Of a stretch of 64,000 bases of DNA, positions 37,949 to 64,000 are shown in pieces. Each line of letters starts with the position of its first letter. Positions within the stretch are counted from its first letter, which is position 1. Made by a program: the position numbers and the translations under genes. Source of the stretch: a virus; IMG/VR virus record IMGVR_UViG_3300042398_001156, positions 1-64,000 of that record. One strand, 5' to 3'. The notes beneath the pieces are model-generated. The model was not told the DNA's origin, did not search any database, and saw only the letters and a list, made by a program, of their open reading frames with translations.

Positions 37949-37949
37949 C

Positions 37950-39554
37950 ATGGAAGAAAATAAAAAACCAGTTGATCCTATCAAGCAAGCATATGCAAAT
38001 GTGCTTCAGTTTATTACAAACAATTTTTATACAAGTGATGGTAAAGAAATTAAAGTCATCATTAACAATGAAGACACAGATAATATGTACGATGGTAATA
38101 AGATTGTCCTAAGTGAATCACTTATGGATGCTTACGGTACATTAAATTTACCAAGGTTCCTAATTTATTATCATGAATTAGGACACCATTTGTATTCCAA
38201 AGGTTTATTTGTAATGTTAGAAACATGGCGCAAGATAAATACTGGTCCATTAAAATGGATTGAACACTATCACCATCTAATTAATTGGATTGAAGATTTT
38301 TATATCGAAAAGAAATTAAAGAAAGATCATAGTTATCTTACTGATGTCATCGACTGTATTCGCAAACTTAAACCAGAGTATGACATCACACAGCTACCGT
38401 ATGCATTCAATTATTATTATGTATACGAAGCCCCGACTCCTACCTTAACTTATGCTGATCAATTAATATTTAAAGGATACATTGATAAGCTCATGTCCTT
38501 TAGAGACACAAACAAAACCAGATTTGGTATGGGTATACTAACAACACTCAGTATTAAACCAAGTAATGAAACACAATTTGCTACAACAATCATTGAGTTT
38601 TATAACTGGTGCATAAGTAAAAAGATATTTGATAACACAAATAATCCACCACCTCCACCACTTAAAAATCCTAATCAACATATCAATCCTTTAGATAACA
38701 AAGGTCAGATACAACAATTCTTAGATAAACTTGATAAGCAAATAGGACCTGACAACCATTTAAATAATGGAGGAACAAGTACTGACCACAGTAAAACTGT
38801 AGGTGAGTTCGATTTTTACAAAGAAGAATCGCATATTAAACAACCTACTGATTTAATTAAAGGAGAACTTGTTCAAGAAAAAACTTTGATTAATAAAGAA
38901 CTATTGGATATGTCACAACGTATTCAAACAGACCATCATACATTAGATGGATTGTTTACAGCACAATACAAAGATTCTATTACTATACAACCAAAGGTTA
39001 ATGTTCTTAACTTCTTTAATCCACATCGCTTAGCCGATCAGAATTTGTTCTTAGAAAAAGGACATACCTATATGAACGTTGCAATTTATCGCGACATATC
39101 TGGTAGTACTGAAGGTTCTATCCACGAAATCATGAGTGATGTATGTGAACAACTATACAAAGATATACCTGTCGACATCACTTATTATTTATATGCAAGT
39201 GGTGACGTCAGTATTATCCAAGTACCTTATATCAAATGGTCTGATAGTAATAACACACCAAAACAATATGAAGAAGATCCACTCTATAAACAATTAAGTG
39301 GCGGTACAAACAGTGACGCAATTGCCGATGTCATTACCCAACAACTATCTGATAAATGGTTAAACATTATCGTAACCGATGGTGATCTAAACTCATTGAT
39401 GGCTAGACAAAACATTCACGCTTTGCTAAAGAATGTATTTGTCGTCTCTGTATCCAGTGAACTAGATAACAATTTAAAAGGTATTTCTATCCGAAATAAA
39501 AACGATGTAACAAGTATTAATAGTATGTTACAGTCAGTTAATTTGTCTGGTTAA
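37950..39554 (+). CDS. DUF2201-like metallopeptidase/VWA protein (about 534 aa)
   Basis: Residues about 75-90 contain YYHELGHHLYSKG, an HExxH zinc site of the putative metallopeptidase domain (DUF2201_N as I recall). Near residue 385 is a VWA domain with the MIDAS motif YRDISGSTEGS, a conserved GGTNSDA threonine near 450 and IIVTDGD near 472. VWA proteins of this type partner with MoxR ATPases. The ATG at 37950 is preferred over an earlier TTG, though neither has a clear ribosome site. The protein is long and has a linker of asparagine and proline between domains. Confidence 0.85.
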   Translation: MEENKKPVDPIKQAYANVLQFITNNFYTSDGKEIKVIINNEDTDNMYDGNKIVLSESLMDAYGTLNLPRFLIYYHELGHHLYSKGLFVMLETWRKINTGPLKWIEHYHHLINWIEDFYIEKKLKKDHSYLTDVIDCIRKLKPEYDITQLPYAFNYYYVYEAPTPTLTYADQLIFKGYIDKLMSFRDTNKTRFGMGILTTLSIKPSNETQFATTIIEFYNWCISKKIFDNTNNPPPPPLKNPNQHINPLDNKGQIQQFLDKLDKQIGPDNHLNNGGTSTDHSKTVGEFDFYKEESHIKQPTDLIKGELVQEKTLINKELLDMSQRIQTDHHTLDGLFTAQYKDSITIQPKVNVLNFFNPHRLADQNLFLEKGHTYMNVAIYRDISGSTEGSIHEIMSDVCEQLYKDIPVDITYYLYASGDVSIIQVPYIKWSDSNNTPKQYEEDPLYKQLSGGTNSDAIADVITQQLSDKWLNIIVTDGDLNSLMARQNIHALLKNVFVVSVSSELDNNLKGISIRNKNDVTSINSMLQSVNLSG

Positions 39555-42365: not shown

Positions 42366-44354
42366 ATGGTCAAATATCTTATCTATGATACTGAAACCTC
42401 AGGTCTCAATATCATTTCCGACAAGCCGTTTATGTTTCAATATGGATTGGTTGATCACAACTTAGAACTATTAGAAACCAAATGGTTTCACGTGAAAGAT
42501 ACTGCAAGTCGTGATATGTTTGTACAACATTTGAATAGTATTCAAACGATTGTCGGACATAACATTAAGTTTGACGTGCACATGGCCATCAATCATGGTA
42601 TCGATTCAAAGTTATTTAGTAATAAAAACTTCATTGATACCGCTGTATTAGCCAGACTAGTACTAGACCATGACATTCAAACAGACAAAACATTTTCTGT
42701 TGCGTTAAAAACACTAGGTGTTCGATACTTAGGTATTGATTCTAACCAAGAAGAACGTTCATTGAAAATGGAACTTAGCCGACTTGTGTCTGAACACAAA
42801 CAAAAGATGAAAGATTATTTTACAGCCAATAACTTATGGGATACAAAACAATCTGCTACTAATCAAACCAAAACACTTAACCATATATATAGCGATTGGA
42901 ATAAAGTATTTCATTTGTATCCACAATACACAGCAATAAGAAAACAATTCTTACAAGCTAATCCAGAACCAACCTATGAACAATGTTCTAACGTTGTGAC
43001 TTATGGTCTTACTGATATTAGATTGACCCATGGTTTACTTAAACTATGGTTCCCTAAAGTGGTACAACTTCAACAAGTTGAAACACTTAAACGTATTAGT
43101 AATGCAACCTATCCACTTGTTGTGATGGAACGTCAAGGTCTTACTGTCGACGTTAAACAAGTACTTAAAGATAGAGCTAAAATCGTAGATGAATTATCTA
43201 AGACAAAGATTGTTGATACAAGAACGAACACTGAGTTATCCATTGGTCAACACGCTAAGCTTAAAGACTTATACGAATATGAATCCGGTGAACAATTAGA
43301 AAGCTCTGATAAAGAAACACGTAGTGAGATCGAAGATGTATCTCCAGCTGCTAAAGCAGCAAATTACATAGCTAAATTAGATAAGTATCTTAATACCTAT
43401 GTTCGTTCTATATTAGATAAGCTTACAATATTCAACGGTGAGTACCGTGTCTTTACCCAATACAACTTAGCCGGTACTATTACAGGTCGTTTATCTTCTG
43501 ACTTCCAACAGTTCCCTAAAGAACCAATTACATTAGCCGATGGAACAGAAGTTAATATTCGTAGTTGGTTTGTAGTCCCAAGCAAAGACAAGTACATGTT
43601 CTACTTTGACTACAGTCAAATGGAACTACGCTTGCAATGTGAATGGACTAACATTGTAAATGGTGAGCCAGACATTAACATGGTCCGCGCTTTTACACCA
43701 TACAAATGTATACAACGAGATGGTAAATACTATCTTGAAGAAGACCAAACTAAAGAGTGGAAGCCCACTGACTTACATGGCTTGACTACAAAGAACGCAT
43801 TCCCAGGCATCGATGAAACACATGCTGACTGGAAGAAATACCGACAACTCGGTAAGCGTACGAACTTCGCAGTTAACTATGGCGCTGCTGCACCTAAGAT
43901 TCAACAAGCATTAAAGGTAGACTTTCCTACTGCACAAGCATTAGTACAAGGTTATCGTAAAGCTTTTGCTGGTGTTGTCGCCTTTGGTAAGTGGATTAGT
44001 AACCGTGTTTATATCACGGACAATATCCCTAACCTATTACTGCGTCGATACTTTAGCCGCAACAAACATCAACTACAAAACTGGTTGGTGCAAGGTAGTG
44101 GCGCAGACATTCTATTACTAAAGCTCAGAGAGATCTATGAGTATATTAAATCTAAACCACACTGGAAGTTTATGATTACAGTGCATGATGAATTAGGATT
44201 TGTATGTTCTGATATCCCTGAAGCCCAGCTTAAAGAAGAAGTAAAATATATACAAAACTTAATGACACATAGCATGACTGCTGTTGATATCATTAGTGAT
44301 GTAGAATACACCAAGACCAAATGGTCAGAAAAGGATGAGTGGCATGGAGTTTAA
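42366..44354 (+). CDS. DNA polymerase, family A (662 aa)
   Basis: Replicative polymerase with proofreading. Exonuclease start DTETSGLN (residue 8) and HNIKFDVHM (near 59) fit the 3'-5' exonuclease, though the third motif is less clear. Motif A FDYSQMELR (near 413), motif B RQLGKRTNFAVNYG (near 493) and motif C TVHDELG (near 605) are all present. Length is that of T7-like family A enzymes. The end overlaps the next gene by about 20 bases. Confidence 0.97.
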   Translation: MVKYLIYDTETSGLNIISDKPFMFQYGLVDHNLELLETKWFHVKDTASRDMFVQHLNSIQTIVGHNIKFDVHMAINHGIDSKLFSNKNFIDTAVLARLVLDHDIQTDKTFSVALKTLGVRYLGIDSNQEERSLKMELSRLVSEHKQKMKDYFTANNLWDTKQSATNQTKTLNHIYSDWNKVFHLYPQYTAIRKQFLQANPEPTYEQCSNVVTYGLTDIRLTHGLLKLWFPKVVQLQQVETLKRISNATYPLVVMERQGLTVDVKQVLKDRAKIVDELSKTKIVDTRTNTELSIGQHAKLKDLYEYESGEQLESSDKETRSEIEDVSPAAKAANYIAKLDKYLNTYVRSILDKLTIFNGEYRVFTQYNLAGTITGRLSSDFQQFPKEPITLADGTEVNIRSWFVVPSKDKYMFYFDYSQMELRLQCEWTNIVNGEPDINMVRAFTPYKCIQRDGKYYLEEDQTKEWKPTDLHGLTTKNAFPGIDETHADWKKYRQLGKRTNFAVNYGAAAPKIQQALKVDFPTAQALVQGYRKAFAGVVAFGKWISNRVYITDNIPNLLLRRYFSRNKHQLQNWLVQGSGADILLLKLREIYEYIKSKPHWKFMITVHDELGFVCSDIPEAQLKEEVKYIQNLMTHSMTAVDIISDVEYTKTKWSEKDEWHGV

Positions 44355-47088: not shown

Positions 47089-50000
47089 TTATTTTAATAT
47101 CATAGCTTGTGATTGCCTGTATCGTACGTACTGTCTCCATTGAATGTTCTTAACTAAACGATATGGGTTAGTAGTAGGTCTACGCATACGTCCAAACTTA
47201 TTAAACCAATCTCTGTATATGTTTTCATATTTAGCCCAACGGCCATTACGTCCGTAACGATATCTACGCGGTGTATACTTTTCATAATTTTGAACAGTAT
47301 AAACTAAAGGTATTGTAGTTACAGGAGTATAAGGTTGTCTAGAAACAAATGGTTTAAGTTTAGATTGTTGTAAATTTTCTCTCATAGGTAATGCATTAAG
47401 TACTCTAGTTATTGGTCCTGCAATAGCAAGCTGTCTAATGCTTTGCATAACATCTCTTGTTTCTAAAAATTTAGCAATACCTTTTAATAAAGGCCTTTGT
47501 CTTCCCACTAAAGCTGCACTAGGATCACTTAAAATATTTTGAACATCATATAAACCTAATCCAATACGCAACCCAAAATTTTTACTAACACGTATCCAAC
47601 CACTTTGCATTTCTAATAATTCAAATTCACTATACTGTCCTTCTTCATCTGCGTATTGACCATAAACACCATCGATAACGTCGCTTAATAAAACAACAAT
47701 ACGTGGGTCCGTAATACGATCAATCCAGTTCTTAATAGAACGAACAGGGAATGATAAGTATGGAATGTCAGCAAGTAATTGCATTTCTAAAGGACTACGT
47801 AAGCCATAATTAAAGAAACGTTTAAGAGAATTATTAACAGATTCTTGGAAATTGTAACCACGTAACTGTCTATCAAGTAAGTAACCTGCAATACGACCTA
47901 CGTTTTCTGTATCAGTATTTAAGTCTTCATAAAAAAACTTATAACCAGCTTTTGTAATTCTTAATAATTTACCAAACAAAGTTTTATTAGAAGTACCAGT
48001 ACGCTGTTCTTCTATCTCGTTATACACTTCTTTAAATGATCGTGTAGAAAAATCATTAGCATCTAAAGCTACGCGTTGACTTACAAGATCTCTTAAGTAA
48101 GCAAAACTTTCTTGACGATACGTATCAATCTGTGCATTCGTTTGCATAAAGGCACTGATTTCAAATAAGATATTTTTTAAGTCATTATAATCAGCATTAT
48201 AAATAGGGTTACCATCTACATCTTTATACTTAGTATATTTTTTCAAACGTTTTTCAATACGTGCCCTATAAATATTACCTTTATCTTCTCCAAATTTTAA
48301 GTTGTCATATAAAGTAAAGTATTCTGCAAAGCGTATATCTAATAAAAAGTTAACAGAATCACGTATGCTTGTACGATTTAATATAGCTAACACACCATCT
48401 TTATTTTTTAATTGGTAAGTAGTATCATTTGATACTTTACTTAAATCTTCAATAGACTTAACACCAACAACGTCTTCTAATAAAAATTTTAATACACTGT
48501 CTAAATCTTTTTGGTATACTAAAGCATTATTTTCTAAACGATATTTAATTCTATTTTTTAACTCATCTTGTTTTAATGATTGAGCACCTTCAACGTAACC
48601 ATTAATTCTATATCTAATATTTAAAAAGTTTTGTATAACATCTAATACTTGTTCTTTAGTTATTGCAGTTTTATTTAATAGTAATTTATTTAATTTATCA
48701 TATGATGATTTTACTTCTAATAAAGTAAGAATACGTTCTTCAGATATATCTTGATACATATTATACACATCAAAAGTTAAACCCATAATACGTATAATTT
48801 CTTTATTGTTTTTTAATGTGCCATATATATCAAAGTCTTTATAAATTTCACTGTATAACTGTAACCAAGTATCTAACATGTTACGCATAATAAAACCATA
48901 ATTAAAACGCATTAATAACTTTTCAAGATATTGTAACTGTCCTAACCAAGTTGATAATGGACCTGTAAATTTAAATGGTTTATAAGCAGTTTCATAAGAA
49001 GACATTAAGTTATCAATAGTAACAAGACCTATGTTAAGTACTTCACCTTGCGCTAGTTTATCTTCAAGCAATTTTAAAAGTCCTTTTAATTCTTTCCAAT
49101 TTTTAATGTTTATTTCTTTTAATGTAGGTGATATATCAGATCCTAAATCAATACCATTTAAATCAACGGATGTATATTCTTTACCTTTAAATATAATTTT
49201 ATTAATAGGTGTTTCAAAAGTATAAGACTTTTTAATAGGAGCATTTAATTCTTTAACATAATCAATAATTTCTTGGAAAGATTTAAATTTAATATCTTTA
49301 GAATGTTTACGTCTTCCCAAAAACTTATCCCATCTTGATTTATTTTCCCAAGTAGGATCATCTTTAACAAATAAATCACCAACTTTTTTAGCGAGTCCTT
49401 CAGTATTATAAGCATCTTTTTGTACAACTAAACGAATAAAGTCTCTATTAGATACTAAGTATTCATAGAATTCTTTTACATCATATACACGTTTAGTTGT
49501 TTTATTACCATTGCCATCTAGTAAAACAATATCTTTTTTAAAAATAGAAGCAGCGCTAATTAAAGGATAGATAAGTTTATCCATATTCATTATGTTAGTA
49601 TTTTTAAAACGATTGATATCAGTACTAGTTAATGTAGGTGTGTCACCAAAATATCTTGGAACACCATCTTTAATCATTTCAATTGTTTCACCTTCAGGTG
49701 TGTGTAATAAAAAGATACCGCTTGTAAAATTACGAGCAAATGATTTGCTTAATGCACCCATTTGAATTTCTCGTTTCTTTTCTAATAATTCTTTTAAACG
49801 ATTCTTAAAATACTTTAACGAATCTTTTAAATCTAATTTTTCTATTTGCTCAATAGATAAAATAATATCTTCTTGTTCTTTTTTTGATGTAACAAGTTTA
49901 CCCGCAAGTTGTTTTAATTTGCTTTGGTTAATATACAATTCATCGTTGTTTTCTTTTAAAGATATTTGCGCTGTGCGTATTTCTCTTACTAAATTTTCAA

Positions 50001-53000
50001 TTTTATAAAATGCTAATTCGTTACTAACGAGTCTACTTATTTGGTCGTTAACACTTTCTTTAGAACGGTTGTTATAAGATTTTTCCTTTTCATTTTTTAA
50101 TGATTTAAATTCTTTAAATGAATCTGTTATTTGTTCTATTAATTCTTCAATAGTAATAGGATCTTTTAGTACATCTAAATTTTCATCTTTTAAAAACTGA
50201 CTAACAGATTCAGTTTCTAAATCAGAAGCTTTCGAAATACTTGCAAGTGCTTCATTGTAATCATTCCCATAAGGATTACTTAATTTACTTGCAATAATAT
50301 GTAAGTTATCTTTTGTTGCACGTGTGCTTGTACTATTCTTAACTGTATTAATACGTTGAGATGTTTGCCCTTCTTCTCCAATTGTAACGTACTCTACATC
50401 AACTTCTTTAGATCCTAAAAAGAAATCTTTAGCGTGTTGATATTTAGATGGTAATAACTCTCTTATGTATATACGTTGTTTATAACCCAAAGATTCTATA
50501 ATAGTTTTATAAAGAAAATAACTGTCAGCTAATAAACGAATTTCTTTCATATCTAATTTAGCATTACTATCTGAAGTAACTGCATATCTTGCTTCTATTT
50601 CTTTAAAGGTTCCGTAAGCCATATTAAAGATACGGAATAAACGGAAGCCAACAATACGTAAAGAAACTAATCTTCCTAAAAAATTATTAACTGAATCTTG
50701 TTGGCCATTAATTGTAATAGTTTTATCTAAAGCTTTTTCTAAATCTTTTTCTTGATTAAATATTTTTGAAACTTCAACAATTATATTTAAGTACTGATTA
50801 TAAACTGAGTCTGGTACGTAAATGTCACCGAACATTTCTTTTTTAGAGTATTCATTTATTAATAAATTTGCGGCGTTTAATGCGCTTGCTTCTGATCTAT
50901 AGCTACCTTGTAATTGTGTACTTTTAATTTCAATACGTTTTTCTTTTAAAGCTTTTAACTCTTTATCTTCTATTAATAATTCTTCCATTTCAAAAGTATC
51001 TTTATCCATACCAATAGCAATTGCATTATCGTGGTCATCATCAACACCAAGTGTAATGTCTCTTATACCTACTTTGTTAGCACTTGCTAATACACGGTTT
51101 TTAAACGCACGTAAATATTCACTTACAAGCATACGAATAGGTCCATGTTTAGCAATACCAATAATGTTATTAGCTTCTATAGATTGAGTACCTATAGTAC
51201 CACGATCAACAATAGATTGATTTAAATAATTAGAGGCGTGTCTTTGTATTACGTTTTCTAATTTTTCTTTAGTTTTCTTTTTAGCTTTAGGATTTATAGC
51301 TTTTTTAAATTCACGAATAGCATCTTCGTTTCTTGAAAAATAAAATACATATAAGTATTGTTCATCTACTTCGTCAAATTTATCTACAACAATACCGTTC
51401 TTTTGATAGCCTTTATACTTTTTAATAAACTCTAAATAGTGTGGGTTTAATGAAGTTGCATTTTTATAGAACGTATCAAAGTGTCTTACTACAGCATCAA
51501 CTTTATTAGGACCACTCATTACTTCCGCAAATGAAGTTAATTCTTTAACAACTAAAGCAGCAGCATATAATTTTTTATATAAGAAAACAAGTACATCTTC
51601 TGCATCTTGTTTAAAATAATCTTTATGTTTAACTGCATCTACTGCATCTATATAAATTTTTGTTTCTGGGTTATACGCAACTTCTTTAAACCAACCGTTG
51701 TAAACTTGATCAGTAAAATTAGGTAACATTTGTTTAGCAAAATTATTAGCGTCTTTGTTAATTTTTTCTTTAAGATCTTCAAAACTTAATCCTGCTTCTT
51801 GATCTTTTAAAGCAGTTGAATATATTGTGTTTCTAAATGTACCCAATACTTTTTCAAATGTTAACGTTAATGAATCTACAGAAACAATATTTCTTAAAGG
51901 ATCTTTAAAACTATTCCAAACATTACCTGTTTGATCTCTATTAATATTTGGGAATATGCTTAACGTAGATTTAGAAGTTTGAATTTTTCTTACACCACCG
52001 AATATAAGAATACCGACTTTAGATCCTTGGAAACGTGTAACCGTTTCATTACGTCCAACACTGTATAATTTTCTAAAGAATACTTTTTTTATTATTTCAG
52101 CGTTAGCTTTTTCTTTTCGGTTTCTAATAATTTCATCTACGCCCGTTTTAATAATATATTCTTTATCTTTAACTGATAAATGTTTTTCTAAAACTTCACC
52201 ATTAACAACATTAAAATCTTTACGGCTAACATATTGTGTTAAATCATATTTTTTAGCATCAATAATTTTTTGGAATAAATAAGAACGTGCAGCAATATTG
52301 AAATATCTTTTATCTTCTAATGCTTTTTTAACTGCAGCTGGATCTTTGTAGTCTTTTAATTCAAAGTCAGGCGCTGTGTTTAAGTTAAAAAGTTTTCTTA
52401 TTGCAACGTTTAAAAATTCTTTTTGTTCAGTTTCAGTCCAGTCTAAAGTTTCTGGTATAACAAGATTGTTAATATCTTTTTGAATACCTTCGTATAAAGA
52501 ACCATATAATTCTGACCATTTATATGTTGTTCGTATTTTTTCAAAAACGGATTTACCTACAGAAGTATATTCATAACCAATGTTTTGAATACGTTTATTG
52601 GTTTTAACATCAGGTATTAATTCTTTACGTATTTTTTCTAAGTAGCCTTCTACATATCTTCTTTCTTTTTTAATTGGGTCCCAAGTAAAGTACCCTTCAT
52701 CGTAATAAGATTCTTTAGTGGCATCATCTCGATCAAAACGTCCATCAATAAATTGTTGTTGGCTTAAAGCAATCATACCAATAGTATCACCATCGTTATC
52801 AGCACCCATCATTTTGTACATATATGGGTTAGCTTCAATAGCTGCGTGGTCGTGGTAACCTATAATTTTTAAAGTAGGTGTAGAGTTAGCATCTTGGATA
52901 GGCCACCGTGCTGTTAGTACCCAACCAAATTTACGCCCTAACTTATTCTTATAAAAGCTAATAGTATTGTTTTTATTAACAGTGTATAAAATATTTTCAA

Positions 53001-56000
53001 CACCGTTAATACTGTCATTAGTCATGCCTTGTTTATGTAAATGAATAATAAATGCTTCTAGTTCTTCTTTGTTTTTTAAACTTATTTCGTAATTTAATCC
53101 TGTATCTTTGACATTAATACCACTAAAATTTTGTTTCTTTGCAGTGTAATTAAAAGCGTTAATAAGTTTTAACCAGGTGGTTTCGTCAAGTTTTTCTAGT
53201 TGTAACCAGTCTTTCTTTTTACTTAAAGTTTCCCAAGAGTCTCTAGAAGTTCGTAAATTACCTAAACTTAAATCAATGTTGGCAAGTAATTGTTGTCTAA
53301 CACCAGGGTGTTTACGATATAAATATGTATAGATAGCACCTGAGTCAGATGTTAAAAATTCTTGAGCACGATTCCGTGAAGCTAAATTAATTTCTTTTAA
53401 TTTAATATCAAACCATGATTTATCTTTTGCGTTGCTTTCAAGACGCATGTTAAAGAACATCATGTACTCTTGTGCGTTATCAATTAAAGGTGTTTCTGAT
53501 CTTGCTTTAATATTATCTACGGTTTTTTTAATATCGTAATTGCCATTACTTAATTTAATAGCATAAGCTTCAAGGAACTTTTCAATGCCATAGCTTTGAA
53601 TTTCTGAGTAAATACTTATTTCTTTTCTAAAGTCTTGATCTAATAAAACTTTAAAGTCTACACCTTTCATACCTAAAATTGCAACAAAAGAAGGCGTTAC
53701 AGGTACACCGCCTTCAACGTTACCTTTTATATCACGATTAAATATTGCTAACTCAGGGTTACTGTTAAGCCTTGCGTTTACAGACATCTTTTCTGCGGTG
53801 TGATCAGCATCAGCAATCACATAGATTTCACCGCGTTGTATGTCTAAACCTTTAAAGTTATCAATTACAACATCACCTTTGTCTGTAACACGTTCTATAG
53901 TAATGTCTTCTGTAATAACATCATAAGTAAGATCACTAAATATTTTTACTTTATTGACAGAGTCTTCGCCAAATAAATCTAATAGAATATTATAATAATC
54001 TTCACCAGAATCAAGGATAATTTTTCCTTCTTTAATAACAAATAAATCTTTTAATTCTTTGTCTTTAGACGCAAGTATACGTAAGGCACGTTCAGTTAAA
54101 CCATATTTTTTAATAAACGCTTTATTTAAAATAGCAGATGTTTTATTAGGATTATCTAATAATTCTTTACCACGTTTTTGTAACTCAGAATTAACTAAAT
54201 ATTTTCTAATACTATTCATCGTTTGTTCTAGTACAGCACCCCCAGCACCACGTTGTTGTACCGAAGATTTATTAGCAATAATACTAACACCAAACTTTTC
54301 ACGTATCCCATCTTCAAAACGAATAGCACCTTTAAATCCCCACATGCCTAACCAAATTTTCCAGCCTTCATTAGCACCTAAAATTTTAGCTACTTTTCTA
54401 TCTATAATAAGTGCGTCTTCATAAGCCGCAGGCATATCCATAAAGCCTATTTCTAAATTCATACCTATCTTGTGAAATATGTTTCGTTTATAAAATTCAA
54501 ATTGTTTTTCTGTCAATTGATTAGGAGTAAACGTATTAATAAGTGTGCCATTTTCTGCTCTTCGTTCTAATAAATCAGTTAATAAATCACCCGTAGCAGG
54601 GTTATCTTTAATAGCTTGTTCAAAATATAATTCTAAAAGCTCTTCAAATTTTACAGATCTATTTAACTTGTCTTCAAAACTGTAGATGTTATTAATTAAA
54701 CCATACGGTGTATACTCTAAATATTGTTTATTGTAAGGTAAAATAATACGAGCAGGATTTGTGTTAAGTGTATGTGGCATATCTACGTTAGTAGGTAAAT
54801 ATATAGGTACAGATTTACCGGAACTTCCTTCTGCAGATTTTTCTAAATCAAGCAAGACTCCAATCTTGCTGGCACCCTCACTGGTCCAATCTATAACCAT
54901 GTTTGCACTATAAGTAGAAGGTACTAATAACAAGTATTTACTTGGGTCATTGCTTACAAATCTAGAAAGTGTACGATCTGCTAATCCTTGGTAAATTGTT
55001 TTAGTGTTATTTATTTTTTCTTTTTTACGTGCATAGTTATGAACATCTAAAAATCTAAAGAATCTATTTTTTAGTACTTGAGTCATGTTAATAACTTCTA
55101 AAACAGTATCAGGTATAGCATCATCAAAGACTTCGTCTTTTAAAAACTTTTCTGTAAGAACCTTACCACCTCTAACACCTTCATCATTTAATTCAAATAA
55201 GCCAAGCTTTCTGTATTTTTCATAATGTGATAACACACGTTTAATACTTTCAAAGCTGTGGTCTACACCATCTTCTAAATACACAATATTTTGTGGTAGT
55301 TTAGTATGACCAAGTTTTACTTGACCCTTAGCATCTTTGTAATTAAAGAAACGTTTTAACCAATCGTTAATATCTTCATCTTCTTTAGGTCCTTGTAGTT
55401 TAATTGTTTTAACTTCTAATGTTTTACCAGCTTCAATATAAGTGTAATTAAATTCAAAGGATACTTTACCACCTTTTAAACTAAACTTATAACTATTAAC
55501 AACGCCATTAAAATTATCAAATAAATTAACGATAAAAAAGTTTTCTGTAGGTCTTCTTATTAAAGCAACATCTTCTTTAATAACCAGTGCTTTACGATCT
55601 ACACCTTCATGTACATCTTTATACACACGGGTTACGTTAGGAATGTTTAATTGTTGAATAAACTCTAACCCTTCTTTTTGATTAGCTAAATTTTCTAATG
55701 AATCTAAACGTTCTTCTTTTGCTAGGTTTTCAATGTTTACTTTACCGCCATTTAAAATAGTATAAATGTGATCAAATTCCATTTCTTTTTTAATTGCATC
55801 AAGTTTCTTAACTCTGCTTAAAACTTCTACAAACTTATTAGTAACTGCTTCTGTGTTAACTTCTAAATCAGTTTGTTTTCTGTCAAATTTTAAACGGTTT
55901 AATAAATCAATATTGTTATTAACGTAATCTAATTCATCTTTAATAGCTAATGCAACAAGTGTACGCATGTTTAAAGTATCTATTTTTCCAACAAGATTAT

Positions 56001-59000
56001 CTTTTTCTTTTAATAAACTAAGTAATTTTGTCACACCTTTATTTTTACTAAACAATTCTACTAAGTTAGCAAATCGTTTGTCTTGAATAATATTTGTGTT
56101 TTCTTTTAATTTTAATATATTAAAAAATTTATTTAAGATATTAATTAAATCAGCATCATCAATTTTTAAATCAGGAATTTTTTTAAAGTCAGCACCTAGT
56201 ACTTCAGGTCCAATGTTATTCCAAGTCTCTACTAATTCTTGAAGCTTAACAATTGCTAAAGCTTTAAACTCTTCAGTCTTTTGATTTATTATATCTTCTA
56301 TTTTTTTATCAAACGTAGAACTTGCTGCAACTTTACCGTTGTTTAAAAGAGTAATCATAGTAGTAAGTTCTTGACTACGTTTATTATAAGCGTCTAATAT
56401 TTTATTTTTTTCTGCAGCATCCTTGATGCTTATAATAGTAGAATCAATAAATGTAGCTAAAAGTTTTTTAACTTCAGTAGATTCAATATCTATTTTTCCA
56501 TTAGGACTTTCTTCAATTATGCTCATTAACTTTTCTAAAGCTTGCACACTGTTGTTTAATTCTAATTGTAAGTTATCTAATTCTATTTTTAATAGACTAT
56601 AGTTTGTTATATTCGTAGAACTATAACCATATTTATCTTCATTAAGTTTTTCTTTTAGAACTTTATTAATTCTATACGTTGTATTTTTTGTAATCTCTTG
56701 TAACTTTTTAGAGGTTTTTCTAAGAATTTCAAAAAGAGTTTCTTTTTTAACAACACCATCTTCTACTTTCTTTGTTAAATCTTCAATTGTTTTTTCTACT
56801 TCTTTATATTCTTTTAATGTTTTTGCTTGGTCAGTAGCTAACTCTGTTAGTTTTTCTTTATGAGACTTTCTACCAGAAGTTTCAATAAAAGCAATAAATC
56901 TAAGTACTTGTTGTACTTGTAAATCAATTGAAGTATTTGCTTCGTTATAATTAAAGTCTGTTACTTGATCATCAGCGATGTTTAATTCTTCTTTAACAGC
57001 ATCTGTAATTAACTGTCTTACGCTTGTTAATTTAGGATCACCAGCAATACTATCTACACCTTGTTGTATCTGTGCAGTAAATTCTTCTTCCATTATTTTT
57101 AATAACTCATCTGTGTAAGCTAAAATTTTAGCATCTTCTCGTATGTTATGTCTTAACATCCAACCTTCATTAAAATATTTAAATATAGCATTTCTAATAT
57201 CTAAACGTTTAATAGGATCTTTTTCATTAATGTAGTCAAGTACTAAACTTTTTATAGTATTATATTGTGATTTTTCTCCTGTAAATAAACTTACTTTACG
57301 ACCTTGATTTGTTACTATACTTAAACGACTTTCAACATTTTTAATAACATCTTGTATTAAAATGTTTTCTATTTCACGATCAAACTTACCTATAGCTGTT
57401 AAGTCAGCTTTGTTTAAAGGTATACCTTTTTTTAATTTTTGATTAATTCTAGTTATTTCTTTTTTATTAGCAGCAATTAAACGTGCAGCATCTCCACGTG
57501 TAACAGCGTCGTTAACACTAGCGTACTCCATGCGTTCTCTTATAGCTTTAGGATCGTTATCTCTTATTAATTGGTAATATAAGTTTACTTTTAAAGTACT
57601 AGCAAGACGTTGAATAAATTGATTGTAGTTAGGAAAGTCAAAATCTTCACCGTTATGTGCAATAATAGGTACATTTTTAGGCGCTGCGTTTACTTCGTTT
57701 ATAAAAAGACGGGTAACTTCTATGTCATTACGCTGACCTATTACATACTTAATAGTAGTATCTATACGTTTATCTAATTCATCTTTTATTGTTTTATTTA
57801 AAAGATTATAGTACTCATCTTGATCTGTATTTCTCCAAACTTTTTTAGTTTTAGTTGGGTCAGCATTAACCCAAGCTTTAAAGCCTTCCATTTCTTTTAC
57901 ATACATACGTCTTTGTTGTTCATAAAACCGTGTTAATTCAGGAGACAATTTAGTTTCTACTTTACCGTTTACAAGTTCTTCTGTTTTACCTTCAATAAAT
58001 ATTTGATTTGTCATAAATTGATTTAACACATCAAAAGATAATTTACCTTTAACGTTTTTAAATTTTAATATAGTTAATTGATATGGAATTTTATTACCGT
58101 TACTATCTGTTACAGTTTCCATGTCTAAAATAATAAACTCTTCAGGTAAGTTTTGACCTGCTTTTTTCATCTGGGCCATATAATTAAAAGCAGTAATAAC
58201 ACCATCTGTTATACCATTATGTAGCCCTATATTTTTTTCACCGTCAGTATTAGTATCTTTAATTAGTTGTACTAATTTATCATAACCACCTATGTAATAT
58301 TGACCGGCATCTTTAATAATTTTTTCAATAACCTCAACACTAGTCTGTTCAACATTAATTTTATTTAAGTTTCTATACGTATCTAAATTACTATTACCAT
58401 AAGGCTTTTCTTCTTTTCTAGCACTTATAAGGTTATCATAACGATTCTGTATACCCTTCTTATCGCTTTCAGCTTTTTCTAATAACTCATTTAATTTAGC
58501 AATACGTGCAGGTACTTCTGTAGAGTAATCTTTTAATGCTTCTTTTTCTTTTTTTAAAGCAACAATTTTATCTGTTAGTTCTTTTCTTTGCGCAATTAAA
58601 TCATCGTGTTCTTTTTTATATAAAGTAGTATCATTTGATAATATGTAAGACGCAAGATACTCATCTGATATTTCTTTATTTGTTTCAGCACTTACTTTTT
58701 TTGCAACACGTTTTAACACAGTAGTAGGATCTTGATTACCTTCTGTTTTTAAAACATTAATGACATTATTACTATTTTTAATATTAACTTTATTTTTTGT
58801 TATACGACTTTTTAATTCTATTAACGCTTTTATAGTCTGTTCTAAATCATAATTCTTTTGATTAGTAATTAAATTATTTATAGTTATTTCAAATTCACCT
58901 TTAAGTTCTTTTAATTGGTCTTTACTATATTTATCTTTAGTAGTTTCTACAACAGTAGATTTATTAATTGCGTCTTCTACTTTTTTAAGTTCATCTAATA

Positions 59001-62000
59001 TATATTCTTTTTGTTTAAATGAATTAATATCCATGTTGTCAAAAGGATATGATTTTAATTCTAATAATCTTTCTAATACTAATAAAACTTCTCTTGGTAT
59101 TTCTATAGTTGTAACGTTACTTCCTGTACCAACAACTTCAAAACCTTCTTGTATAGAAGGTTGAGCTACGCCTCTGTTTGCTTTTTTTCTTTTTTCTAAT
59201 TCTTTTTCGTCCGATTTAAAATCAGATTGTTTTACAAAATAAAGTTTTTCTGAGCTAACATAAGTTATTGGTATTTGTAAAGATGTTGACCAGCTACCAG
59301 TTGGTTCATCTCCACCACGTACATATAATCTTTCTGTACTACTATTAACTATGTTTTTTATTTTTGTTATAAACGTATTTAATTGATTTCTTACATAAGG
59401 ATTTTCAATTAAAAATTTAAGTATATCATCGTTTAATAAATTTCTTTTTTTCCAATCAATCTTACTGTATTCTTCTTCTTCTTTATTTAATGCTTCTCTA
59501 AACTTATCAAATAGTGGATGACTTTTTCCAAAGGCATCAAACTCTGCTTGGGTTTTGTCAGTGTTTGGTATTTCACGGCCACTATCTACCCAGTCTTTTT
59601 TTATTTGTTGATAAAAACTTTCTCTTAAATCTGAAGCTTCTTCTAATTTTTCAAACATTAAAACAATTTCTTTTTCGTAAGAAGTTATTTTACTTTCTAT
59701 TTCTTTTAAACCTTCTTCTTTTCCAAGTTTTTCTTTAACTTGTAAAACATTTAAGCTACTTTTTATTTTAAAAGAACTTAAATAATTGCTGTCTTCTTTA
59801 TTAATAGTAGCAATTAATTGTTTAGTTAGCGTTAATAATCCTTGAAGTGTAAATTTCTTTAAGTAAATAAGTTTGTTTAATTCTGTTTTGTAACGTTCTT
59901 TTGTTATATCTTTTTTATTAATTCCTAACTTATGTAAATCATAATTAATTTTAAGTTGCGCGTATGTTGCCCACAAAAATTTACGATATGAAAGCTCATT
60001 AGCTCTATCATGTTTTTTAAATGTAAATGTTTCTTTTTTATTTTTAACATCTTGTATAGCTTTATCAATAACAGTTTCATAATTATCAAAATCTTCCAGT
60101 CCAAAAGTATTAAAGTATTCATCTTGTGCTTGTGCTAAATAATTTTCTGCTTTATTTAAGTATTCACTTTGTGATTTTAAAAGAATATCCGTACTTTTTT
60201 TATCTAGTGTAAGTGAATCTTTTAAATCTTTTTGTTCTTTTGCAGCAATTTCTTTAGCAGCACCTTTAAAACTTCCATAGTAAGCTCTTTGAATTTTATT
60301 AACATGATATCTAGCGATAGCTAACTGTCTTCCTTTACGACTTAAACCATCTTCTGTATCACTAATAATTTTATCACCGTCTGTAAAATATTTATTAATG
60401 TTATCAATTCTATTTTCATTATTTTTAATAATGGATTCATAACCTTTTCTATAAGTACCCCAGGTCTTTTTTGAAACTTTAGAATCTTTTGGATCAACTC
60501 CATTAATTAAAGTTTTTTGAAGTGTATTAATTGTATTAATTTTATCTTCTGCATTTTTAATAAAGTTATTATAATCTTCGACTGTTTGTATATTAATACC
60601 TAATTCAATTAATGATTTAACATTATTTTCAAAAGTATCTTTTTTATATGTATTTCTAATTTTTGCAAATGCTTTATATTCTTTTGTAGATAACCACGTT
60701 TTTGCTTCAATTAAATCATCTCTTATTTTATCGTACAGTTCAAAAAACTTAACAGACTTTTTATTTTTAAATTTGTTTATTTTATCTTGGTTTTCTTTTT
60801 GAGCCTTTGTTAATAATTTTTCATTGAACTCTTCGTATTCTTTAATAAGCGAAGGTGTATTTTCATACACAGCAATTAAAATTTTTTCTTTTCTGTCTTT
60901 TGCTTCTTTATCAATAGTAGTTATTTCATTATTTAAAATAACTTGAGATGATTCTAAAATGTTTATTTGTGTTAATAATTCTAATTCTTTTTTATTTATA
61001 GCAGCAAGATCTGTATTACTAAAATTAAACATAGATTTTAAACTATCTAATCTATTTGTTAATGTTACAGCTTCTTCTTTTAATTTATTGACAGTATTAG
61101 TAATTAATTCCCAGCTTACAATTGTAGGTAATTTTTTAAAATCATAATCTTTATCTCCAGCTACACCTTCTTCTATAGTATCCCATAACAGTCTTTCCCC
61201 TTTATCAAGATTTAATTGACTGCTTAAAATTTTTGTAAGGTCATTAATATTTTGAATACGTTTAGTTACTTCACTTCTTTCCTTAGGAGTCATTGCTTCT
61301 AAAACAGCTTTAGGAAAAATAATATTAATAGCTTTTCTAATTGATCCTGCTGTTTCAATTTGATTAGCAAGGCTAGTTAACTTTGAAATATTATAACGTT
61401 GCTGTGCGTCTGATATAGTTTTTATTTGATCTTCAAGATAACGCAATCTAGTTTGTGCTTGTGCTTTTGTTTTATTGTCAAACTTATTGATAAGAATATA
61501 ACCCATAACTGCTTGTACAAACTCTGGGGTTACATCAAGTAAATGACGACGAGAATTAAAATAATTAACTATGTCTTCTACTTGTTGGTTTATACGTTTT
61601 AATTGTTCTGGATCATTTATAGAATCAACATATTTTTTAAAATCATTTTTATAAATAGTAATAAATTCTTTACGTTGAGATATATTATTAATAGCAATAG
61701 CTATTTCTAAAAAACGAACAAAGTTAATATCTTCTACTTCTGGTTTAATTAACTTTAATAGATTTGTATATCGTTGCATTAATGCCGTGTAATCAATATT
61801 TCTAGAAGGAACTTCATCAATATTTTTAGCGTACTGTTCACTTGTGTAATGAAAACTAATATCTCCTAAAGCTTGTTCAATTATTTTAGCAACAGTTGCA
61901 TTATAGTTTGGATTTGAATTAGGTATAAATATAACTTTAAAAGTATCACGCATTTGTTGTAATATAATTTTGCTAATATTATTAGGTGTAGTTAAAATAT

Positions 62001-64000
62001 ATTTACGTTCAGGTGTAACATTTGTATCAGGCACATCTTCATTTTTTAAAACAATAGTATCTAATCTATTGTTTATATCTTCTACATATGTACCTGCGTT
62101 AATTAAATAACTGACAGAATTATAAATATCTCTTAAGATACTATTTTCAAATACATCTTTTTTTGGATTTGTTTCAAACGTTCCCGTAGCTTCTAAAGCT
62201 TTAACACGTTTAATGTTTTTACGTATTTCTTTATCTCTAAATCTATCAACAGCGTCACTCCAAGACCATTTAGCGCCTTCAAATTTTTGATTAATATAAA
62301 TAGATTTAATCATATTTAATAATGAAACAAAGACAAAAGCATTATCATTAGAACTAAATTTATTTATTAGTACTATCATTAAGTCATCAACAGTTTTGTA
62401 CACTTCAAATAATCTTACAATTTCTTCATAGTCAGTAAATCCTATTTCAGCAAAAAATTGTCTAATTTTATTAACGCGTGTTATTTCATCGTGTTCAATT
62501 TCTTTACCATAAGCATGTGTGTATCCTAATATAAATTTTTTAAAATATGACATAAAATCTTTACTATCATTTAGTAAAGGTATTTTCATTAAACTATATA
62601 ACTCGTAAGGACTTTCAAATTTATCTTCTGATTTTTTACTTCTAAAGCTAGCCATTACTTTATAAACATTATCATCAATAGGAAGATTTAAATCACCTGT
62701 AATAGTTCTAAATTTCTCAACTTCTATATTATAACTTTTTAGGTACTCTTCAAAAATTTCAACGGTAGTAACTTGATTTTTTCTTTCACGATAAAAAATT
62801 AAATTAATAAACATTTCAGTTATATTACGTATTTGTGGGTCTTGAATATTATCTAAGTATTCATTAACGCTTGCATATTTTACTTGAGGTATAGTGGTGT
62901 TTTGGTCTATTACAGCTACTTTATTAGTAGCACCAAACATCGTATCTTCTAATTTATCTATGATACTTTCGATTGTTTTATTAATATCTAAATTATTAAA
63001 AGATAATCCTGGAACAAGTGCAATTAACTGCACTATAATTTCAGACATACTTGTAACTATTTTTCCGCCTTCTGCGTTAGGGTCGTCTAATGTGTATGTT
63101 CTAAATTCTTCTTTAGGTTTTTTATACCAAGCTGCCACATCTTCTTTATTTTTTTTAATTAAATCAGCTAGTATTGAATTGATAGTATCTTTAGTATTGG
63201 GGTCTGCTGCTAAAGCTTTTTCATACAACATAAAAGCTTCACCACCTAAACGAACAGTAGGGGTTTTTCTTGCGTTTGTACTAATCTTTGTTAAGTAAGT
63301 ACTTATAGTTTGCTTCAATAACATTTCTTGTAAACGTAATACTTCATCCTTATTTATACTATCTAAGTTATTATTAAGTTTTAAATCAATAAACATCTTT
63401 CCAAAGTTATATAACTTTTCATAAGAAGAAGATATATTTTGAAATTCATCTTCAGGCAAAGCTTTAATACCCGCTACAAATTGTTCTAAAGTAATGCCTG
63501 GTTGACCTAGATACGTGGCAAATGATCCGGCTACGGATATTAATAGTCTTTTAATATCTAAAAAGTCTTCATCTTTTAATGTATTAAAAACTGTATCTTG
63601 ATCAATATTAAAAAACGATAAAGCGTTTATTAAATCTTCGTTTTTAAAATCTCCGTATTCAAAAATATTTTTATTATTCTTAATAACATAAAGTAAGTTA
63701 GACCAGTTTAAATTAATAGAAGTGCCTTTAATTCTTGCGTTACTTTCTTTAACTTTTTCTTTATAAAATTTACGTGTTTTTCTAACGCTTCTAGCTATTT
63801 GTGTTTCTAAAGTAACACCATCGGTTTGTTTAAGATTAAACATTTCTTTTAATCTTTGTATACCATAAAGTCTTTCTTCTACACGGTTAACAGTATTAAA
63901 CATTGTTAGATTTTCATTATACTTATTATTATCATTAATAAAGTTTGTATTAGCTTCTCTTAAAATTTTTATTCTAGCCGATATTTCTTGTGCTGTAATA
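47089..64000 (-). CDS. Giant virion RNA polymerase-like protein, N-terminus beyond window (at least 5636 aa)
   Basis: The frame stays open from 47089 to the right edge, 32 codons past the first ATG at 63903, which has no ribosome site, so the true start is outside the window. Numbering from that ATG, residues 1 to about 1900 are helical and coiled-coil-rich. D1927, E1929, D2089, H2252 and D2257 form a DEDDh exonuclease signature. YEDALII (3161) and GMWGFKG (3186) resemble the beta-subunit barrel. GADNDGD (3702-3706) fits the DxDGD catalytic motif of the beta-prime barrel. The C-terminal 900 residues are basic and helical, like other large ejected proteins. This matches the single-chain two-barrel RNA polymerases of crAss-like phages. 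It should be packaged and ejected to transcribe early genes. Confidence 0.85.
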   Translation of the reverse strand, partial: ITAQEISARIKILREANTNFINDNNKYNENLTMFNTVNRVEERLYGIQRLKEMFNLKQTDGVTLETQIARSVRKTRKFYKEKVKESNARIKGTSINLNWSNLLYVIKNNKNIFEYGDFKNEDLINALSFFNIDQDTVFNTLKDEDFLDIKRLLISVAGSFATYLGQPGITLEQFVAGIKALPEDEFQNISSSYEKLYNFGKMFIDLKLNNNLDSINKDEVLRLQEMLLKQTISTYLTKISTNARKTPTVRLGGEAFMLYEKALAADPNTKDTINSILADLIKKNKEDVAAWYKKPKEEFRTYTLDDPNAEGGKIVTSMSEIIVQLIALVPGLSFNNLDINKTIESIIDKLEDTMFGATNKVAVIDQNTTIPQVKYASVNEYLDNIQDPQIRNITEMFINLIFYRERKNQVTTVEIFEEYLKSYNIEVEKFRTITGDLNLPIDDNVYKVMASFRSKKSEDKFESPYELYSLMKIPLLNDSKDFMSYFKKFILGYTHAYGKEIEHDEITRVNKIRQFFAEIGFTDYEEIVRLFEVYKTVDDLMIVLINKFSSNDNAFVFVSLLNMIKSIYINQKFEGAKWSWSDAVDRFRDKEIRKNIKRVKALEATGTFETNPKKDVFENSILRDIYNSVSYLINAGTYVEDINNRLDTIVLKNEDVPDTNVTPERKYILTTPNNISKIILQQMRDTFKVIFIPNSNPNYNATVAKIIEQALGDISFHYTSEQYAKNIDEVPSRNIDYTALMQRYTNLLKLIKPEVEDINFVRFLEIAIAINNISQRKEFITIYKNDFKKYVDSINDPEQLKRINQQVEDIVNYFNSRRHLLDVTPEFVQAVMGYILINKFDNKTKAQAQTRLRYLEDQIKTISDAQQRYNISKLTSLANQIETAGSIRKAINIIFPKAVLEAMTPKERSEVTKRIQNINDLTKILSSQLNLDKGERLLWDTIEEGVAGDKDYDFKKLPTIVSWELITNTVNKLKEEAVTLTNRLDSLKSMFNFSNTDLAAINKKELELLTQINILESSQVILNNEITTIDKEAKDRKEKILIAVYENTPSLIKEYEEFNEKLLTKAQKENQDKINKFKNKKSVKFFELYDKIRDDLIEAKTWLSTKEYKAFAKIRNTYKKDTFENNVKSLIELGINIQTVEDYNNFIKNAEDKINTINTLQKTLINGVDPKDSKVSKKTWGTYRKGYESIIKNNENRIDNINKYFTDGDKIISDTEDGLSRKGRQLAIARYHVNKIQRAYYGSFKGAAKEIAAKEQKDLKDSLTLDKKSTDILLKSQSEYLNKAENYLAQAQDEYFNTFGLEDFDNYETVIDKAIQDVKNKKETFTFKKHDRANELSYRKFLWATYAQLKINYDLHKLGINKKDITKERYKTELNKLIYLKKFTLQGLLTLTKQLIATINKEDSNYLSSFKIKSSLNVLQVKEKLGKEEGLKEIESKITSYEKEIVLMFEKLEEASDLRESFYQQIKKDWVDSGREIPNTDKTQAEFDAFGKSHPLFDKFREALNKEEEEYSKIDWKKRNLLNDDILKFLIENPYVRNQLNTFITKIKNIVNSSTERLYVRGGDEPTGSWSTSLQIPITYVSSEKLYFVKQSDFKSDEKELEKRKKANRGVAQPSIQEGFEVVGTGSNVTTIEIPREVLLVLERLLELKSYPFDNMDINSFKQKEYILDELKKVEDAINKSTVVETTKDKYSKDQLKELKGEFEITINNLITNQKNYDLEQTIKALIELKSRITKNKVNIKNSNNVINVLKTEGNQDPTTVLKRVAKKVSAETNKEISDEYLASYILSNDTTLYKKEHDDLIAQRKELTDKIVALKKEKEALKDYSTEVPARIAKLNELLEKAESDKKGIQNRYDNLISARKEEKPYGNSNLDTYRNLNKINVEQTSVEVIEKIIKDAGQYYIGGYDKLVQLIKDTNTDGEKNIGLHNGITDGVITAFNYMAQMKKAGQNLPEEFIILDMETVTDSNGNKIPYQLTILKFKNVKGKLSFDVLNQFMTNQIFIEGKTEELVNGKVETKLSPELTRFYEQQRRMYVKEMEGFKAWVNADPTKTKKVWRNTDQDEYYNLLNKTIKDELDKRIDTTIKYVIGQRNDIEVTRLFINEVNAAPKNVPIIAHNGEDFDFPNYNQFIQRLASTLKVNLYYQLIRDNDPKAIRERMEYASVNDAVTRGDAARLIAANKKEITRINQKLKKGIPLNKADLTAIGKFDREIENILIQDVIKNVESRLSIVTNQGRKVSLFTGEKSQYNTIKSLVLDYINEKDPIKRLDIRNAIFKYFNEGWMLRHNIREDAKILAYTDELLKIMEEEFTAQIQQGVDSIAGDPKLTSVRQLITDAVKEELNIADDQVTDFNYNEANTSIDLQVQQVLRFIAFIETSGRKSHKEKLTELATDQAKTLKEYKEVEKTIEDLTKKVEDGVVKKETLFEILRKTSKKLQEITKNTTYRINKVLKEKLNEDKYGYSSTNITNYSLLKIELDNLQLELNNSVQALEKLMSIIEESPNGKIDIESTEVKKLLATFIDSTIISIKDAAEKNKILDAYNKRSQELTTMITLLNNGKVAASSTFDKKIEDIINQKTEEFKALAIVKLQELVETWNNIGPEVLGADFKKIPDLKIDDADLINILNKFFNILKLKENTNIIQDKRFANLVELFSKNKGVTKLLSLLKEKDNLVGKIDTLNMRTLVALAIKDELDYVNNNIDLLNRLKFDRKQTDLEVNTEAVTNKFVEVLSRVKKLDAIKKEMEFDHIYTILNGGKVNIENLAKEERLDSLENLANQKEGLEFIQQLNIPNVTRVYKDVHEGVDRKALVIKEDVALIRRPTENFFIVNLFDNFNGVVNSYKFSLKGGKVSFEFNYTYIEAGKTLEVKTIKLQGPKEDEDINDWLKRFFNYKDAKGQVKLGHTKLPQNIVYLEDGVDHSFESIKRVLSHYEKYRKLGLFELNDEGVRGGKVLTEKFLKDEVFDDAIPDTVLEVINMTQVLKNRFFRFLDVHNYARKKEKINNTKTIYQGLADRTLSRFVSNDPSKYLLLVPSTYSANMVIDWTSEGASKIGVLLDLEKSAEGSSGKSVPIYLPTNVDMPHTLNTNPARIILPYNKQYLEYTPYGLINNIYSFEDKLNRSVKFEELLELYFEQAIKDNPATGDLLTDLLERRAENGTLINTFTPNQLTEKQFEFYKRNIFHKIGMNLEIGFMDMPAAYEDALIIDRKVAKILGANEGWKIWLGMWGFKGAIRFEDGIREKFGVSIIANKSSVQQRGAGGAVLEQTMNSIRKYLVNSELQKRGKELLDNPNKTSAILNKAFIKKYGLTERALRILASKDKELKDLFVIKEGKIILDSGEDYYNILLDLFGEDSVNKVKIFSDLTYDVITEDITIERVTDKGDVVIDNFKGLDIQRGEIYVIADADHTAEKMSVNARLNSNPELAIFNRDIKGNVEGGVPVTPSFVAILGMKGVDFKVLLDQDFRKEISIYSEIQSYGIEKFLEAYAIKLSNGNYDIKKTVDNIKARSETPLIDNAQEYMMFFNMRLESNAKDKSWFDIKLKEINLASRNRAQEFLTSDSGAIYTYLYRKHPGVRQQLLANIDLSLGNLRTSRDSWETLSKKKDWLQLEKLDETTWLKLINAFNYTAKKQNFSGINVKDTGLNYEISLKNKEELEAFIIHLHKQGMTNDSINGVENILYTVNKNNTISFYKNKLGRKFGWVLTARWPIQDANSTPTLKIIGYHDHAAIEANPYMYKMMGADNDGDTIGMIALSQQQFIDGRFDRDDATKESYYDEGYFTWDPIKKERRYVEGYLEKIRKELIPDVKTNKRIQNIGYEYTSVGKSVFEKIRTTYKWSELYGSLYEGIQKDINNLVIPETLDWTETEQKEFLNVAIRKLFNLNTAPDFELKDYKDPAAVKKALEDKRYFNIAARSYLFQKIIDAKKYDLTQYVSRKDFNVVNGEVLEKHLSVKDKEYIIKTGVDEIIRNRKEKANAEIIKKVFFRKLYSVGRNETVTRFQGSKVGILIFGGVRKIQTSKSTLSIFPNINRDQTGNVWNSFKDPLRNIVSVDSLTLTFEKVLGTFRNTIYSTALKDQEAGLSFEDLKEKINKDANNFAKQMLPNFTDQVYNGWFKEVAYNPETKIYIDAVDAVKHKDYFKQDAEDVLVFLYKKLYAAALVVKELTSFAEVMSGPNKVDAVVRHFDTFYKNATSLNPHYLEFIKKYKGYQKNGIVVDKFDEVDEQYLYVFYFSRNEDAIREFKKAINPKAKKKTKEKLENVIQRHASNYLNQSIVDRGTIGTQSIEANNIIGIAKHGPIRMLVSEYLRAFKNRVLASANKVGIRDITLGVDDDHDNAIAIGMDKDTFEMEELLIEDKELKALKEKRIEIKSTQLQGSYRSEASALNAANLLINEYSKKEMFGDIYVPDSVYNQYLNIIVEVSKIFNQEKDLEKALDKTITINGQQDSVNNFLGRLVSLRIVGFRLFRIFNMAYGTFKEIEARYAVTSDSNAKLDMKEIRLLADSYFLYKTIIESLGYKQRIYIRELLPSKYQHAKDFFLGSKEVDVEYVTIGEEGQTSQRINTVKNSTSTRATKDNLHIIASKLSNPYGNDYNEALASISKASDLETESVSQFLKDENLDVLKDPITIEELIEQITDSFKEFKSLKNEKEKSYNNRSKESVNDQISRLVSNELAFYKIENLVREIRTAQISLKENNDELYINQSKLKQLAGKLVTSKKEQEDIILSIEQIEKLDLKDSLKYFKNRLKELLEKKREIQMGALSKSFARNFTSGIFLLHTPEGETIEMIKDGVPRYFGDTPTLTSTDINRFKNTNIMNMDKLIYPLISAASIFKKDIVLLDGNGNKTTKRVYDVKEFYEYLVSNRDFIRLVVQKDAYNTEGLAKKVGDLFVKDDPTWENKSRWDKFLGRRKHSKDIKFKSFQEIIDYVKELNAPIKKSYTFETPINKIIFKGKEYTSVDLNGIDLGSDISPTLKEINIKNWKELKGLLKLLEDKLAQGEVLNIGLVTIDNLMSSYETAYKPFKFTGPLSTWLGQLQYLEKLLMRFNYGFIMRNMLDTWLQLYSEIYKDFDIYGTLKNNKEIIRIMGLTFDVYNMYQDISEERILTLLEVKSSYDKLNKLLLNKTAITKEQVLDVIQNFLNIRYRINGYVEGAQSLKQDELKNRIKYRLENNALVYQKDLDSVLKFLLEDVVGVKSIEDLSKVSNDTTYQLKNKDGVLAILNRTSIRDSVNFLLDIRFAEYFTLYDNLKFGEDKGNIYRARIEKRLKKYTKYKDVDGNPIYNADYNDLKNILFEISAFMQTNAQIDTYRQESFAYLRDLVSQRVALDANDFSTRSFKEVYNEIEEQRTGTSNKTLFGKLLRITKAGYKFFYEDLNTDTENVGRIAGYLLDRQLRGYNFQESVNNSLKRFFNYGLRSPLEMQLLADIPYLSFPVRSIKNWIDRITDPRIVVLLSDVIDGVYGQYADEEGQYSEFELLEMQSGWIRVSKNFGLRIGLGLYDVQNILSDPSAALVGRQRPLLKGIAKFLETRDVMQSIRQLAIAGPITRVLNALPMRENLQQSKLKPFVSRQPYTPVTTIPLVYTVQNYEKYTPRRYRYGRNGRWAKYENIYRDWFNKFGRMRRPTTNPYRLVKNIQWRQYVRYRQSQAMILK

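Follow-up and report, generated by a model that had tools for sequence, protein, structure and literature searches.

The giant protein encoded on the minus strand of the window (the whole stretch of 64,000 nucleotides analysed here) probably contains a circularly permuted DEDDh 3'-5' exonuclease domain, at residues ~1862-2112 (full length ~4695-4945). The active-site motifs of this domain follow one another along the chain as III-I-II, and not in the ordinary DEDDh order I-II-III. In an alignment of four divergent giants, the only invariant Asp, Glu and His residues within 1850-2250 are H1895, D1900, D1927, E1929, H2083 and D2089, which, judging from the sequences, is exactly one DEDDh set. 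This architecture is more unusual than the normal-order one proposed in an initial annotation of the same DNA, whose assignment to the DEDDh family we uphold.

The part of the giant reading frame that lies in the window covers positions 47089-63999 on the minus strand, and the frame runs on to an ATG at contig position 72402. The full-length protein therefore has 8437 amino acids, and its gene takes up about one third of the 75,916-base record. The 5604-amino-acid ORF that starts at 63903 represents only the C-terminal two thirds of the giant; residue numbers given here are those of this ORF, and full-length numbers are obtained by adding 2833. The protein carries a strongly conserved N-terminal block (SFVSAISxYGDINDNLYGATRNK), a hydrophobic stretch that is also N-terminal, and a strongly conserved C-terminal block (QLLADIPYLSFP), none of which has a match in Pfam or PHROGs.

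The giant gene is located directly downstream of a 113-amino-acid ORF and the major capsid protein. The nearest cultured relatives by capsid and terminase are the Paenibacillus larvae podophages API480 and SV21 (~31% identity), the portal matches the SU10_portal family, and on such sequence grounds the phage is probably a podovirus. Another protein of the structural block (15343-16680, minus strand) ends in BspA-type leucine-rich repeats (PF13306), possibly involved in host binding. On the plus strand, a MoxR/clamp-loader-like AAA ATPase (36782-37681) precedes a protein whose sequence resembles that of a VWA-domain metal-binding partner (37932-39554), a pair that is odd for a phage replication block; an ORF at 34163-34939, also on the plus strand, looks DprA/Smf-like when read by eye.

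Besides a nearly identical contig, scans of IMG/VR returned three divergent giants (G002, G001 and G004), with open frames that run without stops for 8056, 7606 and 8058 amino acids, respectively. The conservation alignment consists of the window protein and these three, the only four divergent members of the family at hand; identity to the window in the exonuclease region is 23-50%, and 712 residues are invariant over the whole giant. Cultured phage records held no detectable relative of the exonuclease core, the RNA polymerase (RNAP) region or the first 700 residues, and tblastn of the exonuclease core and the RNAP region against 50,697 phage records gave nothing useful.

Motif I (LDMET, residues 1926-1930; 58128-58114, minus strand) is invariant, and D1927 and E1929 form the sole invariant DxE across the 8437 residues. 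Motif II, PIIAHNGEDFDFPNY (57604-57669, minus strand), is formed by a strand and then a helix, is aligned by hhalign to DnaQ 75-103, and includes the string HNGEDFDF (residues 2083-2090; 57657-57634, minus strand). Its consensus in the relatives is PI-AHNG-FDF (AHNGxxFDF) with H2083 and D2089 invariant, and it supplies the only invariant FD of the giant. In the four-way alignment, motif I (DMET) and motif II are conspicuous as isolated invariant blocks. These results bear out the initial annotation in several respects: LDMET, HNGEDFDF and a third string, HNIREDAKIL, lie exactly where it had placed them in the minus-strand ORF from 63903, D1927, E1929 and D2089 are invariant in all four giants, and the long insertion that it had seen between motifs I and II is present. 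The insertion comprises ~90 residues (57739-58008, minus strand), contains a hairpin and helices according to the alignment and the structural models, and is shorter in G001.

Motif III, LHxxxxDxxxT (58192-58221, minus strand), is likewise invariant in the four giants. Its residues are H1895 (58221-58219), D1900 (58206-58204) and T1904, the spacing of H1895 and D1900 being the H-x4-D of motif III; H1895 and H2083 are two of the five invariant His in the giant. The longer consensus, LHxxxxDxxxTxxNY, is found directly upstream of motif I, with 22 residues from the end of motif III to LDMET. A Thr four residues past the motif III Asp is also seen in RNase T, ExoX, ExoI and several phage enzymes. 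The motif belongs to a segment (residues 1862-1916; 58156-58320, minus strand) equivalent to the C-terminal third of DEDDh enzymes, with a kLxxLI helix followed by the motif III helix; hhalign matches this segment to DnaQ 128-181 and AlphaFold predicts the helices. It is followed by the predicted beta1, beta2 and beta3 of an RNase H-like core (58009-58152, minus strand), a stretch that includes the invariant motif I and that each AlphaFold model renders as three long strands.

The initial annotation had instead taken HNIREDAKIL (residues 2252-2261; 57150-57121, with H2252 to D2257 at 57133-57150, minus strand) as motif III and had described the motifs as having the exact DEDDh order. The window's own sequence does fit the consensus HxxxxDAxxLA at this site, but H2252 and D2257 are unconserved in the three divergent relatives although the flanks align: G002 keeps the His and has S at D2257, and both residues are absent from the aligned columns of G001 and G004. 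In addition, after D2089 and up to residue 2400 the four-way alignment lacks any further invariant Asp or His, and a motif III position-specific scoring matrix (PSSM) ranks the site 774th (-13 bits). Conservation of all five residues, the test that the annotation had set for itself, thus came out in favor of D1927, E1929 and D2089 and against H2252 and D2257. We regard HNIREDAKIL as a chance match and not as part of an active site, and a normal-order DEDDh domain using H2252/D2257 as motif III as highly improbable; the H-x4-D that is conserved lies upstream of motif I and consists of H1895 and D1900.

The motif III PSSM was derived from ten reference segments (E. coli dnaQ, rnt, orn, exoX and sbcB plus five phage enzymes). 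Over the four-way alignment it placed H1895/D1900 first in the whole giant, with 8.6 bits (8.58) versus 0.3 for the runner-up; 200 column-shuffled PSSMs gave a mean of 1.3 and a maximum of 8.92, so that at least one of them reached the observed 8.58. With a fixed-spacing motif II PSSM, the true motif II came no higher than fourth, as the His is one residue farther from the Asp in the giant than is usual. The exonuclease of Klebsiella phage ST13-OXA48phi12.3, an ordinary DEDDh enzyme, has the same extended spacing (AHNGEAFDLPF).

The order of the motifs was examined with hhalign, using a profile of ten ordinary-order DEDDh enzymes written either once or twice in tandem; it was the reference profile that was duplicated, and the phage sequence was left unaltered. 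The single template produced three distinct local matches, each of which falls on the correct motif and whose order differs from that of the template: query 14-65 to DnaQ 129-181 (motif III and the preceding helix), query 182-211 to DnaQ 75-103 (motif II), and query 75-81 to DnaQ 9-15 (motif I). The strongest of these is the 50-residue segment upstream of motif I. With the tandem template in local mode, motifs III and I were joined in one alignment, the score rising from 27.3 to 38.6 and the E-value improving from 0.0022 to 1.1e-4. In global mode, the profile with G001 as first sequence gave 191 columns over III-I-II (E 1e-5, a single comparison), and the window-first profile, which has the longer insertion, did not join all three motifs. 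In a scan of 110 windows along the giant, unrelated windows peaked at 18.0 with either template, and the exonuclease region reached 27.4 (single) and 39.2 (tandem, local). For seven normal-order DEDDh controls, use of the tandem template raised the score by ~3 units at most, and for six of them not at all. Together, these sequence comparisons support circular permutation over a chance motif.

The permutation and the insertion are the most likely reason why standard profile libraries miss this domain. Pfam and PHROG scans gave no model matching the exonuclease region, and a profile search of the region against PDB sequences gave no match. The giant does not reach the PF00929 cut-off, and a search of phage genomes with this model gave sub-threshold matches only; those in the window's genome fall within the PolA gene (42366-44354, plus strand). 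The product of this gene is a DNA polymerase of family A that has a 3'-5' exonuclease domain at its N-terminus (PF00476, PF01612), and the phage therefore has a separate DEDD exonuclease of normal order.

Two AlphaFold models were built from the four sequences only, and their confidence is low (pLDDT 63 and 68; pTM 0.45 and 0.58). In each of them a helix carries motif III; it is followed by three long strands, the first of which bears motif I, then by a hairpin with helices, and finally by a short strand-helix unit containing motif II. Strand beta5 is not visible. When the compact model (pTM 0.58) was compared to the PDB using Foldseek, the best match was 3'hExo (E 6e-3), and the leading matches were enriched in DEDDh enzymes, including many RNase T entries as well as TREX1, ERI2 and ExoI. 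None of the Foldseek matches was as good as E 1e-3, and their aligned TM-scores were poor. Foldseek against BFVD was uninformative.

The same reading frame carries candidate RNAP motifs downstream of the exonuclease. GFKGAIR (54319-54339, minus strand), with conserved K and G, is a candidate for the first double-psi-barrel (beta-like KG) motif of a two-barrel RNAP, and GADNDGD (52786-52806, minus strand), in which DNDGD 3702-3706 is invariant in the four giants, is a candidate for the catalytic DxDGD motif. At the level of motifs, the giant is thus a candidate single-chain two-barrel RNA polymerase; a profile search of the RNAP region against PDB sequences found no match to solved two-barrel RNA polymerases. 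The distance of about 1000 residues given in the initial annotation is approximate, as 1100 residues separate D2089 from the KG-type motif (3189) and 1600 separate it from DNDGD (3702). A further invariant H-x4-D pair is found downstream of DNDGD, at residues 3908-3913 (52182-52165, minus strand).

We propose that the C-terminal segment of a DnaQ/RNase T-like enzyme, with the kLxxL helix and the H-x4-D helix, has come to be placed first and would be connected by a short linker to beta1 (motif I, DxE), followed by beta2-beta3, the insertion, and the beta4-helix unit (motif II, HNGxxFD). D1927, E1929, D2089 and D1900 would bind two Mg2+ ions, with H1895 as the putative general base, and the domain would remove nucleotides singly from a 3' end. 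Since all five catalytic residues are invariant across distant relatives, the domain is most likely an active two-metal 3'-5' exonuclease. The size of the giant and its position in the structural block suggest that the whole chain is most likely packaged in the virion and ejected, like the virion RNA polymerases of N4, P23-45 and crAss-like phages, in which case the exonuclease would act beside the polymerase on 3' ends of nucleic acid.

Two other explanations of the conserved residues deserve consideration. The domain might be an RNase H-like DEDD module with motifs I and II only, now dead, a relic, or serving in binding or structure, and LHxxxxD would then be coincidental. The low confidence of the models and the failure of the window-first profile to give a single permuted global alignment are in line with this reading, but H1895 and D1900 are as invariant as the residues of motif I, no other segment matches the DEDDh profile as strongly as the one that would have to be coincidental, and retention of all five catalytic residues at 23-50% identity would be surprising in a relic; we consider it quite unlikely. 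Alternatively, two tandem or interleaved exonuclease-like copies, the upstream one ending in motif III at 1895-1900, the second starting with motif I, and each having lost parts, could account for III-I-II with no permutation having taken place inside one domain. This possibility appears very unlikely, as there is no motif I or II signal upstream, residues 4201-4600 (full-length numbers) are the least conserved region of the giant, and upstream windows score high only where they reach motif III. A single permuted domain remains our preferred reading.

The substrate of this permuted exonuclease is a separate matter. The enzyme may be active on host or phage DNA, in genome breakdown or in trimming of single-stranded ends at entry, and not on RNA made by the polymerase. 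The DEDDh family has both DNases and RNases, and the best fold matches cover both kinds (3'hExo for RNA; TREX1 and ExoI for DNA), which makes action on DNA a tentative but serious possibility. On the other hand, the covalent link to an RNA polymerase favors RNA ends, and PolA already brings its own 3'-5' exonuclease, which makes proofreading in DNA replication an unlikely role for the giant's domain; neither argument is decisive. We slightly favor nascent RNA over host or phage DNA ends as the presumed substrate. Possible functions are RNA trimming or proofreading for the linked polymerase, or an attack on nucleic acid of the host once the phage has entered. The more specific proposal, that a permuted DEDDh exonuclease linked to a virion two-barrel RNAP serves this polymerase as an integral part that proofreads RNA or trims transcripts in the 3'-5' direction, seems doubtful to us at present.

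DEDDh exonucleases are among the most widespread nuclease families. The fact that profile libraries miss the giant's domain implies that further permuted ones are possibly hidden in giant phage proteins. Furthermore, with an exonuclease and a transcribing polymerase in one chain, it would become possible to test directly for RNA proofreading or transcript end-trimming at the onset of infection. The initial annotation knew of no such fusion, and this is consistent with the openly licensed PMC literature, in which neither a DEDDh-RNAP fusion in phages nor a circularly permuted DEDDh exonuclease turned up.

With the DEDDh enzymes (DnaQ-H; PF00929 RNase_T, including DnaQ, RNase T, ExoX, ExoI, 3'hExo and TREX1) the giant shares DxE, HN..FD and H-x4-D-x3-T, as well as the upstream kLxxL helix and the predicted beta-beta-beta-alpha-beta-alpha core. 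Unlike them, it has an N-terminal motif III, a long insertion between motifs I and II and a chain of 8437 amino acids, and it is missed by PF00929. The virion polymerase of N4 is of the T7-like single-subunit type. N4-type virion RNA polymerases, of ~3500 amino acids, are packaged and ejected (PMC12633501), and they resemble the giant in being giant polymerase proteins of short-tailed phages; the text of that paper mentions no nuclease in them. Another giant virion protein, P23-45 gp96 (5002 amino acids), is a virion RNA polymerase fused to the tape measure (PMC10770324). It has a two-barrel RNAP within a giant virion protein, as we propose here, but its RNAP is N-terminal, the phage is long-tailed, and a metallopeptidase is described and no exonuclease.

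Archaeal PolD (DP1-DP2) also combines a two-barrel polymerase core with a proofreading 3'-5' exonuclease (PMC6355029). It differs in that its product is DNA and its exonuclease, DP1, is a separate subunit from another nuclease family. DP1 is a calcineurin-like phosphoesterase. The nearest report to a DEDDh-RNAP fusion concerns the large transcription proteins of crAss-like phages, some of which have a PD-(D/E)XK domain (PMC7886860). Like phi14:2 gp66, the virion RNA polymerase of a crAss-like phage, and the other large Crassvirales transcription proteins (PMC7886860), the giant is a very large protein, and it bears candidate DxDxD motifs of a single-chain two-barrel RNAP; its nuclease, however, is DEDDh and not PDDEXK, and the phage is not crAss-like by terminase, portal and capsid, as its TerL, portal and MCP are not of the crAss type.
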